DNA of 64,000 bases, taken from assembly GCF_001306135.1 (NCBI RefSeq), contig NZ_LGKP01000004.1, forward strand, positions 124,001-188,000. Reading direction: 5' to 3'. The notes under the pieces were generated by a model that did not search any database, was not told the DNA's origin, and saw nothing but the letters and a program-made list of their open reading frames with translations. How positions within the stretch are numbered: the first letter of the stretch is position 1; each line of letters opens with the position of its first letter. A program made the position numbers and the translations under genes. This document shows positions 1 to 8,120 of the stretch, in pieces. Source of the stretch: Herpetosiphon geysericola (GTDB lineage: Bacteria; Chloroflexota; Chloroflexia; Chloroflexales; Herpetosiphonaceae).

Positions 1-2
1 TT

Positions 3-203
3 GCCCATAGGCTGAGCACAATTTTACGGGCCGACCGTATTTTGGTGATGGATGCAGGCGAAATTATCGAATCGGGCAGCCATGAGCAATTGTTAGCCCA
101 AGCTGGCCACTACTACAATTTGATCAAGGGTCAGCTTACCAAGCCGCTCAGCGAGCCAGTGGAGCATATAGCCGCACCCAATTTGAATCAACTGACAGCC
201 TAA
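3..203 (+). CDS. ABC exporter, ATP-binding domain (C-terminal end only)
   Basis: Only the last 66 residues are in the window; the gene starts upstream. The fragment opens with the H-loop motif AHRLST and continues with [20 protein letters not shown], the standard end of the nucleotide-binding domain of an export-type ABC protein with fused membrane and ATPase domains. The last ~25 residues are a non-conserved tail. It lies on the same strand as three precursor-like peptide genes that begin 375 bases downstream, so it may be their exporter and, if it carries a C39 peptidase domain at its N-terminus, their leader protease; that part is not visible. A hairpin terminator follows the stop codon. 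Confidence 0.9.
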
Positions 204-208
204 AATCC

Positions 209-235
209 AATTCCCTGCTGAAACAGCAGGGAATT
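209..235 (+). terminator. Hairpin terminator after the ABC exporter gene
   Basis: A perfect 12-bp stem (209-220 with 224-235) closes a 3-nt loop five bases after the exporter stop codon. The T tract after it is weak. A second hairpin lies at 288-295 / 307-314 (TTCTATCA with TGATAGAA). Both separate the exporter transcript from the peptide genes. Confidence 0.65.
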
Positions 236-476
236 GTCCCTCGGATTTACAAACGATCGTCAAGAAAGGTTGGGGCAACATCGAGCGTTCTATCAATCCG
301 CTAAGCTGATAGAATAATCACGCGCAAGTATTTTTACCCTGAAATATCACCTATATGTACCAATAAATAGCAAAAATCATCTAAAATTGCTATTTTTGGA
401 TAAACCTATTTAATACTCAATATAATTTCATACTTATTAAATTCATTATAAAATTCAAAATCTATTTCTATTACTA

Positions 477-504
477 TTGACATTAACCAAATTATTTCTA
501 TAAT
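477..504 (+). promoter_or_regulatory. Consensus sigma-70 promoter of the peptide gene cluster
   Basis: TTGACA at 477-482 and TATAAT at 499-504 are both perfect consensus boxes with a 16-bp spacer. They sit in an unusually AT-rich stretch (about 340-520). The expected transcript start near 511 gives a leader of about 68 nt before the first peptide gene. The remainder of 236-476 holds no open frame that I can support. Confidence 0.8.
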
Positions 505-578
505 CATAATCATTGCTGGAACGAACAAAAATATACCAAACATCGCCATTAATTTCGGTTATTAGAAGAGGAACGATC

Positions 579-767
579 ATGCAAAAACAAACAATGCTGG
601 AAACAAAAAGCGAAGAAGTCATCATTTTCGGCTTGACCTATCTCGAAGAAGAAGCTGCTGAAATTCAAGATGTTGTCGGATGTTTGATGCCAATTGGCAG
701 CGATGGCTACACCGTCACAGGTTGCGACGATAGTGATGGCGGCAACCCAGGCGAACTGATTCCTTAA
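579..767 (+). CDS. RiPP-like precursor peptide, copy 1 (62 aa)
   Basis: This is the first of three paralogous tandem peptide genes. The ATG at 579 is chosen because AGAAGAGGA lies just upstream and because it lines up with the other two starts. The middle block FGLTYLEEEAAEI is identical in all three, followed by D(V/I)VGC. Counting back from that GC gives Ile or Val at -4, Ile at -7 and Glu at -8, which is the pattern of double-glycine leaders, here with GC in place of GG. The tail after the GC begins LMPIGSDGYTVTGCDDSD and ends GELIP, so it has one Cys two residues after a Thr. The peptide is probably a leader plus a modified core. No modifying enzyme is in the window, so the class (lanthipeptide or other thioether or ester type) is undetermined. 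Confidence 0.7.
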   Translation: MQKQTMLETKSEEVIIFGLTYLEEEAAEIQDVVGCLMPIGSDGYTVTGCDDSDGGNPGELIP

Positions 768-817
768 TCGACTTCGATATAGTCGTGCGGCGCGTTTGTG
801 TAAAAGAGGAGCATTCA

Positions 818-976
818 ATGGAATTCGAAACGAACACCAGCGAAGAACTGCCAGTTATTTTCGGCCTGACCTACCTTGAAGAAGAAGCTGCTGAAATCAA
901 CGATATTGTTGGCTGCTTGATGCCAATTGATGGCTATAGCTCAACTGGTTGTGATGATACTGATGCGATTCCATAG
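818..976 (+). CDS. RiPP-like precursor peptide, copy 2 (52 aa)
   Basis: This is the second paralogue, 50 bases after the first. The ATG at 818 follows AAGAGGA. It shares FGLTYLEEEAAEINDIVGC with copy 3 exactly. The tail is LMPIDGYSSTGCDDTDAIP (19 residues): conserved GY, then Ser/Thr-x-Thr-Gly-Cys, then acidic residues, ending in Ile-Pro as in the other copies. The leader is conserved almost to identity while the tail varies in length and sequence, which is the usual signature of precursor peptide families. The function of the product (antimicrobial, signal or other) cannot be told from the sequence. Confidence 0.7.
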   Translation: MEFETNTSEELPVIFGLTYLEEEAAEINDIVGCLMPIDGYSSTGCDDTDAIP

Positions 977-1025
977 GCCAATGCAGCTTTAACTAACGAC
1001 ATTTGTGTGTAAAGGAGTGCAATTC

Positions 1026-1199
1026 ATGGAATTTGAAACCACCCAAACCGATGAAACACCCATGATCTTCGGCCTGACCTACCTTGAAGAAGAAGCTGCT
1101 GAAATCAACGATATTGTTGGCTGTTTGGCCCCAATTAATGGCTATTCGGGCACTGGCTGCGACGATAGCGACGTTCCTCCAGGCACCCAAATTCCCTAA
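1026..1199 (+). CDS. RiPP-like precursor peptide, copy 3 (57 aa)
   Basis: This is the third paralogue, 49 bases after copy 2. The ATG at 1026 follows AAAGGAG. It has the same start (MEFET) as copy 2 and the same leader block. The tail begins LAPINGYSGTGCDDSDVPPG and ends TQIP. Spacing and strand suggest that all three are on one transcript from the promoter at 477-504, ending at the hairpin at 1235-1257. Confidence 0.7.
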   Translation: MEFETTQTDETPMIFGLTYLEEEAAEINDIVGCLAPINGYSGTGCDDSDVPPGTQIP

Positions 1200-1234
1200 A
1201 CCTACAGAAAATTGATCGCTTCCAGCAAGCAAAC

Positions 1235-1257
1235 GAGCCGTGGATTTGCCATGGCTC
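1235..1257 (+). terminator. Terminator of the peptide gene cluster
   Basis: GAGCCGTGG (1235-1243) pairs with CCATGGCTC (1249-1257) through one G-T wobble, with a 5-nt loop and ATTTGGTTT after it. It lies 36 bases after the last peptide gene. The stretch 1258-1375 before the CRISPR array shows no gene. Confidence 0.6.
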
Positions 1258-1404: not shown

Positions 1405-4400
1405 GCGCTTGCTTCGCTTGGTCAATCGTTTCAGTATCCTCTCTGCGGATCGATTAATTGAAATATCATTGGCAATTCAACGAAAGTGAGGTGCTGTATG
1501 TTTCAGTATCCTCTCTGCGGATCGATTAATTGAAATCTCGCTTTATTGATTCTTGGCAAACAACACAGAATAGTTTCAGTATCCTCTCTGCGGATCGATT
1601 AATTGAAATATTCGCGCCACTGAATCGCTGTCATAAGCGCGTCTGGTTTCAGTATCCTCTCTGCGGATCGATTAATTGAAATTTTTCTCCTAGTTAGCCC
1701 CGTCCCTGCCTGCGACGGTTTCAGTATCCTCTCTGCGGATCGAATAATTGAAATCCCCAACCCGCCGCCCCGCAGCCGACGACCATCCAGCGTTTCAGTA
1801 TCCTCTCTGCGGATCGATTAATTGAAATGATGGCATCGTGCGCAAGGTCAGCGAGGCGGCCACGTTTCAGTATCCTCTCTGCGGATCGAATAATTGAAAT
1901 CATACTCGTTCTGATTCCGTTGATGCTTTGCTGAAGTTTCAGTATCCTCTCTGCGGATCGATTAATTGAAATACATACAGTAGCTCGCCAGTGCGATTTG
2001 CCAAATGTTTCAGTATTCTCTCTGCGGATCGAATAATTGAAATGTATCATGTTCCCCTTGACTCATATGAATTGTTCCAAGTTTCAGTATCCTCTCTGCG
2101 GATCGAATAATTGAAATTTGATCAGCAAATCCTTCGTTGTTGGTATAAATGATGTTTCAGTATCCTCTCTGCGGATCGAATAATTGAAATCGCCGCCGAT
2201 GTTTATAGATTTCAATTTGTCCACAGTTTCAGTACCTCTCTGCGGATCGAATAATTGAAATATCGCGCCGAAGATCAACGCCGCCTAGCCGAACTAGTTT
2301 CAGTATCCTCTCTGCGGATCGAATAATTGAATTTACCTGAAGATGAACCAACCGGATTTGTTTACATTTCGTTTCAGTATCCTCTCTGCGGATCGAATAA
2401 TTGAAATTTGCCACGGTTGGGGGCAAGGTTGGGGCGATGCGCGTTTCAGTATCCTCTCTGCGGATCGAATAATTGAAATTACCTTCAGCCTGATTTGCAC
2501 TATGAAACACAATTGTTTCAGTATCCTCTCTGCGGATCGAATAATTGAAATTTGCCCGCGCACGTCATCAAGCGGCTGATCGTCGTTTCAGTATCCTCTC
2601 TGCGGATCGAATAATTGAAATTGAATGGCTATGCTGATTCGCTGTTTCGCCCAACGTGTTTCAGTATCCTCTCTGCGGATCGATTAATTGAAATGACCGA
2701 TCCGCCCTATGGCACAACTAATCTTGCATGTTTCAGTATCCTCTCTGCGGATCGATTAATTGAAATCCTTTGAACCAATTCGACCGTTCCCATGGTTCTG
2801 CGGTTTCAGTATCCTCTCTGCGGATCGATTAATTGAAATAACGAAGGCATTCAAGCCACGCTGCAATGCCGTGGTTGTTTCAGTATCCTCTCTGCGGATC
2901 GAATAATTGAAATGGCATTCGTTCGCCAGCCTACAAATTCGACCTTGAAGTGTTTCAGTATCCTCTCTGCGGATCGAATAATTGAAATACCCAGCACGCC
3001 ACCACGCATTGATTTAGATCAAGCGCGTTTCAGTATCCTCTCTGCGGATCGATTAATTGAAATTCCTTAGTGGATGAGCGCCGCTTCTTTGTTTAAAACG
3101 TTTCAGTATCCTCTCTGCGGATCGAATAATTGAAATATCGCAACCCATCCGATCCGCTCGGAAGAAAAAAGTTTCAGTATCCTCTCTGCGGATCGATTAA
3201 TTGAAATCCTGGTATCCCGAGGTCAACCCGCTCGATGCGGTAGGTTTCAGTATCCTCTCTGCGGATCGATTAATTGAAAGCGGCGGATTGCGCTCGAACT
3301 GTGGTACACCGATCAGGTTTCAGTATCCTCTCTGCGGATCGATTAATTGAAAGTCAGTTGGCCCAACGGTCACACTCACCATGAGCGTGTTTCAGTATCC
3401 TCTCTGCGGATCGATTAATTGAAAGCTACACCATGATAGGCCTCTCATTGCACTCCTAAGTTTCAGTATCCTCTCTGCGGATCGATTAATTGAAAGCCGA
3501 TGAATCAGAAATCAAGGGAAAAAATCGAAATAGAGTTTCAGTATCCTCTCTGCGGATCGATTAATTGAAAGAATGGCCGTCTATGCCGCGCTGGCAGTGC
3601 GATCAAGTTTCAGTATCCTCTCTGCGGATCGATTAATTGAAAGGCCACACTCGCGATCGCGGCAGATTCAGGAGTTATTGTTTCAGTATCCTCTCTGCGG
3701 ATCGATTAATTGAAAGTTCAATCCACACCAGCGACCAGGCGATTATGGTGTTTCAGTATCCTCTCTGCGGATCGATTAATTGAAAGACAATGCGCAGGAA
3801 TCGCTTATTTTTGGCGGTGACAGTTTCAGTATCCTCTCTGCGGATCGATTAATTGAAAGGATCGCGTTGCAGATCGGCGATGGCATCAGCCATGGTTTCA
3901 GTATCCTCTCTGCGGATCGATTAATTGAAAGCCATCCTCAAAACTTGCAGCAACGCCCCGCTTGCGAAGTTTCAGTATCCTCTCTGCGGATCGATTAATT
4001 GAAAGGGAATCGATTCAATCAAGAGATCGGCGAGTTCGTCGGTTTCAGTATCCTCTCTGCGGATCGATTAATTGAAAGAGAATTTGCCCCAACCCATCCC
4101 TTGGCCCAACAATGTTTCAGTATCCTCTCTGCGGATCGATTAATTGAAAGCCAATCACTTTCCAGTACCAACCCCGCCCATCCAACGTTTCAGTATCCTC
4201 TCTGCGGATCGATTAATTGAAAGATCATCATGCTGTCTATCGCACGTTGCGCCTAGAGTTTCAGTATCCTCTCTGCGGATCGATTAATTGAAAGCGCTAT
4301 AGTCATAAGAGAAACGAAAAGCTAATTCGTTGTTTCAGTATCCTCTCTGCGGATCGATTAATTGAAAGCTACGGCCAACCAGCCCAAAAAGGCTAGTTGA

Positions 4401-7166
4401 CAGGTTTCAGTATCCTCTCTGCGGATCGAATAATTGAAATTAGTAGGTTCTGACCGCTGCCTTGGCCCATCCGGCGTTTCAGTATCCTCTCTGCGGATCG
4501 AATAATTGAAATAACTGAGTCCACCGCAGCGAGTGGAATATTACAATCGTTTCAGTATCCTCTATGCGGATCGAATAATTGAAATTTAGTAGCTTCTTTG
4601 AAGCGGGTGGCACACCACCGGGTTTCAGTATCCTCTATGCGGATCGAATAATTGAAATTTGCACTAAGGCGTGCAACCGATGGCCTTGGGCGTTTCAGTA
4701 TCCTCTCTGCGGATCGAATAATTGAAATTTACTGACCCGCCGTATGGTGTAACGAAAATGGCCTGTTTCAGTATCCTCTATGCGGATCGATTAATTGAAA
4801 GTTGAATATCAGCGAAGGCATTGGATACTTCGCAAATGTTTCAGTATCCTCTCTGCGGATCGATTAATTGAAAGTTTTAAGTAACGGCGCTTCATCATGC
4901 GAATATTGATGTTTCAGTATCCTCTCTGCGGATCGATTAATTGAAAGAACCAAGCTTTCCGAGAAGCTTCAGCGTGAAGTACGTTTCAGTATCCTCTCTG
5001 CGGATCGATTAATTGAAAGGTTGATGAATGCGCCGATGTCGGTAGCGCTGCCGTAGTTTCAGTATCCTCTCTGCGGATCGATTAATTGAAAGAGTATCTT
5101 GCATGAGGTCATCACAAAAATCAAATTCGTTTCAGTATCCTCTCTGCGGATCGATTAATTGAAAGTTGGTCAATCTTCAGTCGTGTGTTGTTTACCAAGT
5201 TGTTTCAGTATCCTCTCTGCGGATCGATTAATTGAAAGCATTGATGCGATGCAAACCATTCACCGTGGCGTAACAGGTTTCAGTATCCTCTCTGCGGATC
5301 GATTAATTGAAAGGTTCGATTCATCGTATTGTTATCTTGAAAAGCATGTTTCAGTATCCTCTCTGCGGATCGATTAATTGAAAGAGTTTGTTTTCATCCA
5401 TCACAAAGCCCATGTCATAGTTTCAGTATCCTCTCTGCGGATCGATTAATTGAAAGCTTTACCTTATCATCGCCATGGCCAAAGCCGAGCAGTTTCAGTA
5501 TCCTCTCTGCGGATCGATTAATTGAAATTTGAAGAAATCGACTGGCCGTTTACCGAGGAACGTTTCAGTATCCTCTATGCGGATCGATTAATTGAAATAT
5601 AACAGCCCCCACGGTCGGCCAAACCTTTGGGTGCGTTTCAGTATCCTCTCTGCGGATCGATTAATTGAAATTGCTGCGTCATGGCGCGTGCGCATCACCC
5701 ACCGGAATGTTTCAGTATCCTCTATGCGGATCGATTAATTGAAATCACCCGCATCGAGCGTGGCACCACGAAATACTGGTGTTTCAGTATCCTCTATGCG
5801 GATCGATTAATTGAAATAACACGATGGGCTTGGCATGATCAAGTAGCTGAGTTTCAGTATCCTCTATGCGGATCGATTAATTGAAATAGGTTCTGAAGCA
5901 ACGAAAGTAGCAGACCTATTAGCGTTTCAGTATCCTCTCTGCGGATCGATTAATTGAAATATCCAGTCGATGACAGCCCGACTGAATCAAATGAACGTTT
6001 CAGTATCCTCTCTGCGGATCGATTAATTGAAATGAAAAAGCAGGTCAGGTTGTACAGCCAATTAAAGATGGTTTCAGTATCCTCTCTGCGGATCGATTAA
6101 TTGAAATACGCAGGCGCAGGATTAGCAGGCTTAGTTTCAACAGGTTTCAGTATCCTCTCTGCGGATCGATTAATTGAAATTGCGTGGCTTTGCAGAAACG
6201 CGCATCGCCATGGTCTGTTTCAGTATCCTCTCTGCGGATCGATTAATTGAAATGACCGTCTTTTGGAGCTTCATCCTGAGGATATAACTGTTTCAGTATC
6301 CTCTCTGCGGATCGATTAATTGAAATTGATCGATAGCCAATACACCACCGCTGATCCGATTTGTTTCAGTATCCTCTCTGCGGATCGATTAATTGAAATG
6401 CATGCAAGGCTTCGCTAGCACTGGTGTAGCCACGTTTCAGTATCCTCTCTGCGGATCGATTAATTGAAATATAAATAACTCAGATCAACCGACAGACGAC
6501 CTAGAAGTTTCAGTATCCTCTATGCGGATCGATTAATTGAAATTGCGGGTGTTGTTTTTGAATTTTGGCGACCTGTGTTTCAGTATCCTCTCTGCGGATC
6601 GATTAATTGAAATTGTTGGCATCAATGCCCATGGACTTGGCTAAGGCGGTTTCAGTATCCTCTATGCGGATCGATTAATTGAAATATGCGATGAAGAATA
6701 GCGTTAATGCTGCTGTGTTGTTTCAGTATCCTCTCTGCGGATCGATTAATTGAAATCCAAAACGACGAAAACAATCGCCATTTTGGCGATGAAGTTTCAG
6801 TATCCTCTATGCGGATCGAATAATTGAAATCCACAATAAACCACGCGAAACCCGCCAAGCCATGTTTCAGTATCCTCTATGCGGATCGAATAATTGAAAT
6901 TGACAAACTGGATCGCGCGATTGTTTCAATGATGTGTTTCAGTATCCTCTCTGCGGATCGAATAATTGAAATTTGATAAACTGATCTCGCCGCTGTCGTT
7001 GTAGGCCAGTTTCAGTATCCTCTATGCGGATCGAATAATTGAAATCTGGTCGCGCCGGCTCGCGCAGCGGATAGCGACCTGTTTCAGTATCCTCTATGCG
7101 GATCGAATAATTGAAATAACCGTAAATATTTTCTAGTTATTTTGATCAGCGGAGTTTCAGTATCCT

Positions 7167-8120
7167 CTATGCGGATCGAATAATTGAAATAACTTGCAAG
7201 GTCGATGGCGACAACCAACGCGGCGTTGTTTCAGTATCCTCTATGCGGATCACGGCCTGCCAAATAAGATTACCAGACGCATCTTCATGAATTGTCTGCG
7301 AAGGATGCCAACGGGTCTCAAGAACCCGTTGGCGCACATGGCGTTGGAATCGAACGCTAATCGTTATCGGCTGCTCATCTTGAGAGAACCAAATTCCCCA
7401 AGCTCCCTCAAATAGTTGAATCGGATCGAATGTCGAATGAACATCAAAATGTTCATCTTCGATAACAGGAACAGAAATAATCCGTTCGATTTTACGCGCA
7501 CGAAGCGATTGAGCTTGTTCAGAAAATCCCACCACATATGTTGAACCACCAAGTGCAATTGGTTCTATCATATAAGGATGAAATACTTCGTTGAAGGCTT
7601 GTATACCCTGTAATGGCTGATAACGCCAACTTATTTTTCGCCCTGATAACCAAGCCTCACCAATTTTTTCTAAGGCCCGTTGGGCCTTACTTTTCAGTGA
7701 CGGTAATCTTGTACGCTGGTGCGCGGTTTGTTGTAGGATATGATCCCCTGCAAGGCTAGCAACTCCTCGGCTAAGAGTCAGACCCAACTTATGCATTACT
7801 TCAAGCCCATGTAAGTTTGATTGTTGAAGATGCTGTTGCATCAAACGTAGGGCAATCATGGTAATAAGGCTTTCATCACGCGATAAACGAACATACATCA
7901 AATAGCTAGCGCGGTCAATGTATACTTGACGATCTTTAGTTCGCCGAATTGGCACATCATCAAGCTCTAATTCTACCAACCATAGCCGAATTGTAGACCG
8001 ATTACAATTAAAAATAGTAGCCAATTCTGATTGACGAATAGGAGTTCGACGTTCAAGAAGGAACCGCTCTAACTGACGAACCCCCATGATCTTGGTATAA
8101 TCATGGTTTTTCTTAGGCAT
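7167..8120 (-). CDS. WYL-domain transcription regulator, C-terminus replaced by CRISPR sequence
   Basis: The N-terminal ~75 residues form a helix-turn-helix domain (RQSELATIFNCNRSTIRLWL). A WYL domain follows (ISWRYQPL, then EPIALGGSTYVVGF and RARKIERI), then the start of the WCX-type C-terminal region (RVLETRWHPSQTIHEDASG). Native sequence ends about residue 289 (LIWQAV). Residues 290-317 are encoded by the truncated repeat, one spacer and part of the next repeat, whose CTATGCGG variant supplies the stop codon. Family members usually continue for roughly 30-40 more residues, so the protein is probably truncated. WYL proteins are known regulators of CRISPR loci, for example the repressor Sll7009 in Synechocystis, so a regulatory link is plausible. 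If the array is transcribed from the minus strand, this gene lies directly upstream of it. Confidence 0.88.
   Translation of the reverse strand: MPKKNHDYTKIMGVRQLERFLLERRTPIRQSELATIFNCNRSTIRLWLVELELDDVPIRRTKDRQVYIDRASYLMYVRLSRDESLITMIALRLMQQHLQQSNLHGLEVMHKLGLTLSRGVASLAGDHILQQTAHQRTRLPSLKSKAQRALEKIGEAWLSGRKISWRYQPLQGIQAFNEVFHPYMIEPIALGGSTYVVGFSEQAQSLRARKIERIISVPVIEDEHFDVHSTFDPIQLFEGAWGIWFSQDEQPITISVRFQRHVRQRVLETRWHPSQTIHEDASGNLIWQAVIRIEDTETTPRWLSPSTLQVISIIRSA
7228..7251 (-). repeat. Truncated last repeat, fused to the WYL gene
   Basis: The first 24 bases of the plus-strand repeat (GTTTCAGTATCC to GCGGATC) are intact, and sequence then switches to the coding region of the WYL regulator. The missing part is the last 13 bases (GATTAATTGAAAT type). 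Read on the minus strand, the remnant keeps the GGAT/ATCC stem and the terminal CTGAAAC, so it could still provide the 5' tag of the adjoining spacer's crRNA. Confidence 0.9.

Follow-up and report, generated by a model that had tools for sequence, protein, structure and literature searches.

In Herpetosiphon geysericola three short genes stand in a row behind the end of an ABC exporter gene, and the questions raised by this locus are what kind of peptide the row encodes, which enzyme modifies it, and where it is cut from its leader. The window, i.e. the whole stretch of DNA that was analysed, comprises 64,000 nucleotides (contig NZ_LGKP01000004.1, positions 124,001 to 188,000). A first-pass annotation had proposed a new RiPP family with a thioether-capable core holding a single Cys. 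The evidence compiled here points elsewhere: the locus very probably comprises the precursor genes of a graspetide (omega-ester peptide) cluster, with a predicted ester-ringed product.

Precursor genes and operon layout

As read from the contig sequence upstream, the window opens inside an operon of two genes, namely in the second, the gene of a C39 exporter, which follows an ATP-grasp ligase gene. The ligase gene (G000:C2:120936-121994) lies outside the window just upstream of the exporter, whose ATG, preceded by AGGAGG, falls within the final bases of the ligase gene; the exporter starts at G000:C2:121984, 2017 bases before window base 1. The features of the window are the following.

1..203, + strand: C39-peptidase ABC exporter (PCAT), 3' end; gene start outside the window
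208..236, + strand: 13-bp hairpin past the exporter stop codon (RNA fold and alignment)
477..504, + strand: TTGACA-N16-TATAAT promoter of the precursor genes (exact letters; kept in 8 genomes)
579..767, + strand: precursor 1, 62 aa, core LMPIGSDGYTVTGCDDSDGGNPGELIP (PF14409, 92.7 bits)
818..976, + strand: precursor 2, 52 aa, core LMPIDGYSSTGCDDTDAIP (PF14409, E 1.6e-19)
1026..1199, + strand: precursor 3, 57 aa, core LAPINGYSGTGCDDSDVPPGTQIP (PF14409, E 2.2e-18)
1235..1257, + strand: 9-bp terminator-like hairpin after precursor 3 (fold, alignment)

The first hairpin, for which the RNA fold of 205-245 gave -21.4 kcal/mol, is matched at the same position in other Herpetosiphon genomes by a hairpin of different sequence, and it is probably the 3' end or an attenuator of the enzyme operon. 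In the alignment the letters of the promoter at 477-504 are identical in 8 genomes amid surrounding sequence that has diverged, and the promoter is therefore very likely used. The hairpin at 1235-1257 likewise has a counterpart near the same place in other Herpetosiphon genomes. The frame drawn by the first-pass annotation, with an ABC exporter ending just upstream (at 203), a perfect TTGACA/TATAAT promoter and a terminator, was thus recovered, the last as a terminator-like hairpin. Directly after the precursor operon comes a large CRISPR array (window 1428-7189) with at least 66 repeats of GTTTCAGTATCCTCTCTGCGGATCGA[AT]TAATTGAAA, spaced about 73 bases apart.

The description of three tandem precursors with a common leader, a variable remainder and an Ile-Pro end was borne out. 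Each of the three genes is preceded by a Shine-Dalgarno-like GGAG or GAGG, and each product carries the identical block FGLTYLEEEAAEI, continued by [QN]D[VI]VGC; the leader is followed in all three by GY[ST]xTGCDD[ST]D, and the C-terminus is IP. With precursor 3 as the query, the other two were recovered in the genome with E-values of 1.9e-23 and 1.8e-15. Across 29 homologues dN/dS amounts to about 0.07 for the 20-residue leader block and about 0.04 for the 11-residue core motif, with dS near saturation in the latter, so that both segments are under strong purifying selection. Taken together with the E-values of the genome search and of the PF14409 matches, these low ratios place the resemblance of the precursors far beyond chance.

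The ATP-grasp ligase

The first-pass annotation had left a modifying enzyme to be looked for upstream, and the enzyme found there is an ATP-grasp ligase of the graspetide type. Its best profile matches are TIGR04187 (195.6 bits, E 1.2e-57), MvdC (175.1 bits, 1.9e-51) and MvdD (161.5 bits), all of them below every curated NCBIfam (equivalog) cut-off. The closest solved structures are AMdnB, MdnB, CdnC and MdnC (E 3.9e-29 to 6e-26), and the DWRR and EINPNGQF-type blocks align with those of solved graspetide ligases; the AlphaFold model of the enzyme is poor (pLDDT 59). Judged by its sequence, the neighbouring ligase is of the microviridin-synthetase type.

In all nine genomes with full-strength PF14409 precursors, a member of the same ATP-grasp clade (>600 bits) and a C39 exporter adjoin them, whereas the next ATP-grasp proteins among 400 Chloroflexota genomes reach at most 170 bits; genome G006 holds neither precursor nor ligase. 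H. aurantiacus has a second graspetide-type ATP-grasp gene on a different contig (G001:C2:28400-28993, 164.5 bits).

Some RiPP ATP-grasp enzymes add an amino acid or close a peptide head to tail instead of forming side-chain esters, and PMC8939145 cautions that ester-forming and other RiPP ATP-grasp enzymes are hard to distinguish without a phylogeny. For the present ligase such an activity is very unlikely, since the best family and structure matches (MvdC, MvdD, AMdnB, CdnC) are all side-chain ester or amide ligases, the score of RimK-type models, at 37 bits, is far below theirs, and the conserved donor and acceptor residues of the precursors lie in the core.

Conservation of leader and core

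The core motif [ST]xT[GS]CDDxD occurs in 29 of the 30 peptides, and the broader form [ST]xTxC(x)DDx[DE] in all 30, such that the conserved Ser/Thr donors and Asp/Glu acceptors typical of graspetides, in which Lys may also be a donor, were found throughout. The core had been described earlier as Thr-Gly-Cys; the Cys of this triplet is invariant (30/30), but the residue before it is Gly or Ser in relatives, and Thr-[Gly/Ser]-Cys is the better description. The one divergent precursor (G024, L043 1877-2065) combines the same leader with the core TCTACSDDGE, which retains donors, Cys and acids, although its ligase is only 50% identical. This precursor sits upstream of the ligase, not downstream of the exporter. 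Between the second and the third acid Val or Ile can replace Ser/Thr, so that a Ser/Thr at this position is probably not needed as a donor. The PFFARFL leader and the TxKYPSD-type core of the microviridin group are absent from all precursors.

A core with Ser/Thr residues and a single Cys invites a reading as a lanthipeptide or another thioether RiPP, in which dehydrated Ser/Thr would be joined to the core Cys, and C39 exporters are indeed common in class II lanthipeptides. The enzyme that accompanies the precursors in nine of nine genomes is, however, an ATP-grasp ligase, and dehydration would leave the invariant DD and D/E unexplained. Moreover, no LanC-like protein (PF05147, LANC_like) was found in the whole genome at E 0.001 or better, which further disfavours this reading. 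A lanthipeptide is thus highly improbable, and the thioether-capable core proposed at first finds no backing in the present evidence.

Within the graspetide assignment the invariant Cys could itself act as a donor, giving one thioester and two esters. A native thioester is conceivable because the core offers three candidate donors ([ST], T, C) for three conserved acids (D, D, D/E), the third acid and the invariant Cys being available for such a bond. The known ability of graspetide ligases to form non-native thioesters upon donor replacement supports this possibility (PMC13097080; PMC12291112). On the other hand, the literature searched contained no natural thioester graspetide. The Cys may instead be free, disulfide-bonded, or placed at an inhibitor contact. 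Spare acids are, besides, common in graspetide cores, and a role of the Cys as donor is on balance unlikely.

The C39 exporter and the Gly-Cys site

The exporter had been flagged for a possible C39 domain, which was indeed found (PF03412, E 1.4e-28); in the alignment with PCAT1 it has the Cys, the His and the Asp. No gene family adjoins graspetide ligases more often than C39 exporters do (PMC8939145). The earlier reading of the peptides as RiPP precursors with a double-glycine-type leader is equally supported: E-8, I-7, V/I-4 and G-2 match the pattern, with C-1 at its end. Gly-Cys occupies -2/-1 in all 30 peptides in place of Gly-Gly, Gly-Ala or Gly-Ser, and it is the cut site predicted from the leader.

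Since I/V-V-G-C, as in DIVGC, resembles the lipobox [LVI][ASTVI][GAS]C, one may ask whether the peptides are lipoproteins. Yet the segment ahead of the Cys is rich in Glu and has neither a positive N-terminus nor a hydrophobic stretch, and the genes that go with this leader are those of a C39 exporter and an ATP-grasp ligase. With a mean hydropathy of about -0.2 over the 15 residues before the Cys, the lipoprotein reading was rejected and can hardly be entertained.

The peptidase departs from the usual pattern as well. At the place of the oxyanion-hole Gln, six residues ahead of the catalytic Cys, six of six precursor-linked exporters have Ala or Val, while the Gln is kept in PCAT1 and in five other C39 proteins of the same genomes; precursor-linked exporters (G000:C2, L005 2-400, and homologues) are the only ones without it among those compared. 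As a consequence of the missing Gln, efficient cutting by C39 after Gly-Cys is uncertain. The Gly-Cys site and the missing Gln co-occur at every locus checked, and the two may be co-adapted, or the Cys may serve something else, the correlation lying within one clade. That the product is a natural graspetide with a native thioester Cys, and that the C39 peptidase which matures it became suited to Gly-Cys through loss of the Gln, is as a combined reading decidedly unlikely. The two features that involve Cys, the Gly-Cys site and the invariant core Cys, are the only parts of the cluster that a specialist might not expect.

Family and distribution

The precursors match PF14409 ('Herpeto_peptide, Ribosomally synthesized peptide in Herpetosiphon') with scores of 66.3-92.7 bits, where the curated Pfam cut-off is 22 bits. 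A 2022 graspetide paper (PMC8939145) lists this family with those that a 2009 analysis had predicted to be targets of ATP-grasp enzymes, and the proposal of a new RiPP family does not hold. The locus is a further Herpetosiphon graspetide cluster of a known but little-studied family. In the literature searched, which covered the specialist papers in part, no account of the production of a PF14409 peptide was met.

In total, 30 precursors (28 distinct) were collected across 9 genomes, with 1-6 per genome: six Herpetosiphon genomes have 3-6 each, and a single one occurs in each of three others, two of them from Herpetosiphonaceae and the third from the same order. The search of 400 Chloroflexota genomes added a single match, which was weak and was set aside. 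Six precursor loci were recovered when a named collection covering 84,980 species was scanned; they lie in Herpetosiphon giganteus, H. llansteffanensis, H. aurantiacus, two Herpetosiphonaceae MAGs and one Chloroflexota MAG.

Several candidates were discarded. The weak PF14409 match in G064 is a stretch within a longer unrelated reading frame, that in G039 is under the cut-off and has an internal stop, and that in G021 (23.6 bits) belongs to a genome without an ATP-grasp of the precursor-linked clade. G021 holds a lone leader-like peptide, IFGLCYLDEEDASKRIVGCS, with no adjacent ATP-grasp (G021:C94:40614-40694; L015 around 1501-1581), which is possibly a relic. A viral source was not supported, no relative of the precursors being present in viral contigs.

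Proposed pathway and relation to known systems

In the proposed graspetide pathway the conserved leader (IFGLTYLEEEAAEI) would dock on the ATP-grasp ligase, which would phosphorylate Asp carboxylates within CDDxD. The two hydroxyl-bearing residues ahead of this motif, [ST] and T, would then attack the phosphorylated Asp, giving two nested side-chain esters, each with a loss of 18 Da. The calculated masses of the linear cores are 2679.168, 1969.828 and 2373.079 Da; two esters would lower them by 36.02 Da to 2643.147, 1933.807 and 2337.058 Da, and three links with a thioester among them would lower them by 54.03 Da. The C39 domain would cut after Gly-Cys, and the exporter would release bicyclic acidic peptides of 19, 24 and 27 residues. 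All chemical steps are taken over by analogy from the family (PMC13097080, PMC10885120). Two nested esters are the most economical reading of [ST]xTxCDDxD; ring number and connectivity are a guess, and connectivity can usually not be read from the sequence (PMC8939145). By analogy with the characterised graspetides, all of which are protease inhibitors (PMC8939145), the released peptides would be expected to act extracellularly in this manner, an activity predicted from the class. The multiple copies would present one ring scaffold with differing tails.

Among known systems close to this one, the PF14409 cluster of H. aurantiacus DSM 785 (CP000875) shares the precursor family, the leader, the core motif, the tandem layout and the neighbouring ATP-grasp and C39 exporter genes; it has five precursor copies against three in H. 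geysericola, and the tails of its cores are different. Microviridins and chryseoviridins (MdnB/MdnC, CdnC, AMdnB) use the same ligase family and an acidic, Ser/Thr-rich core behind a leader. Microviridins, however, employ the MdnB/MdnC pair where one ligase is present here, and the Herpetosiphon precursors lack PFFARFL, TxKYPSD and the lactam Lys and have an invariant Cys. Plesiocin, thuringinin and fuscimiditide, on the other hand, receive all their cross-links from one ATP-grasp enzyme, as proposed here, and the nested rings of fuscimiditide, with donors N-terminal to the acceptors, resemble the suggested arrangement. In contrast to these three, [ST]xTxCDDxD is a short turn whose loop contains the Cys, and there are no core repeats within a precursor; no PIMT gene was identified beside the cluster. 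PCAT1/LahT-type systems share the fusion of C39 peptidase and ABC exporter and the leader positions E-8, I-7, V/I-4 and G-2, but have Gly, Ala or Ser at P1 where Cys stands here, and Gln where Ala or Val stands here.

Apart from its Cys-related features, the locus extends a known family. With one ligase, one exporter and cores of 19-27 residues, the cluster is small and thus a convenient test system. It is suited to asking which rings [ST]xTxCDDxD yields, whether cutting after Gly-Cys is possible for a C39 peptidase that lacks the usual Gln, and whether graspetides can use Cys as a native donor.
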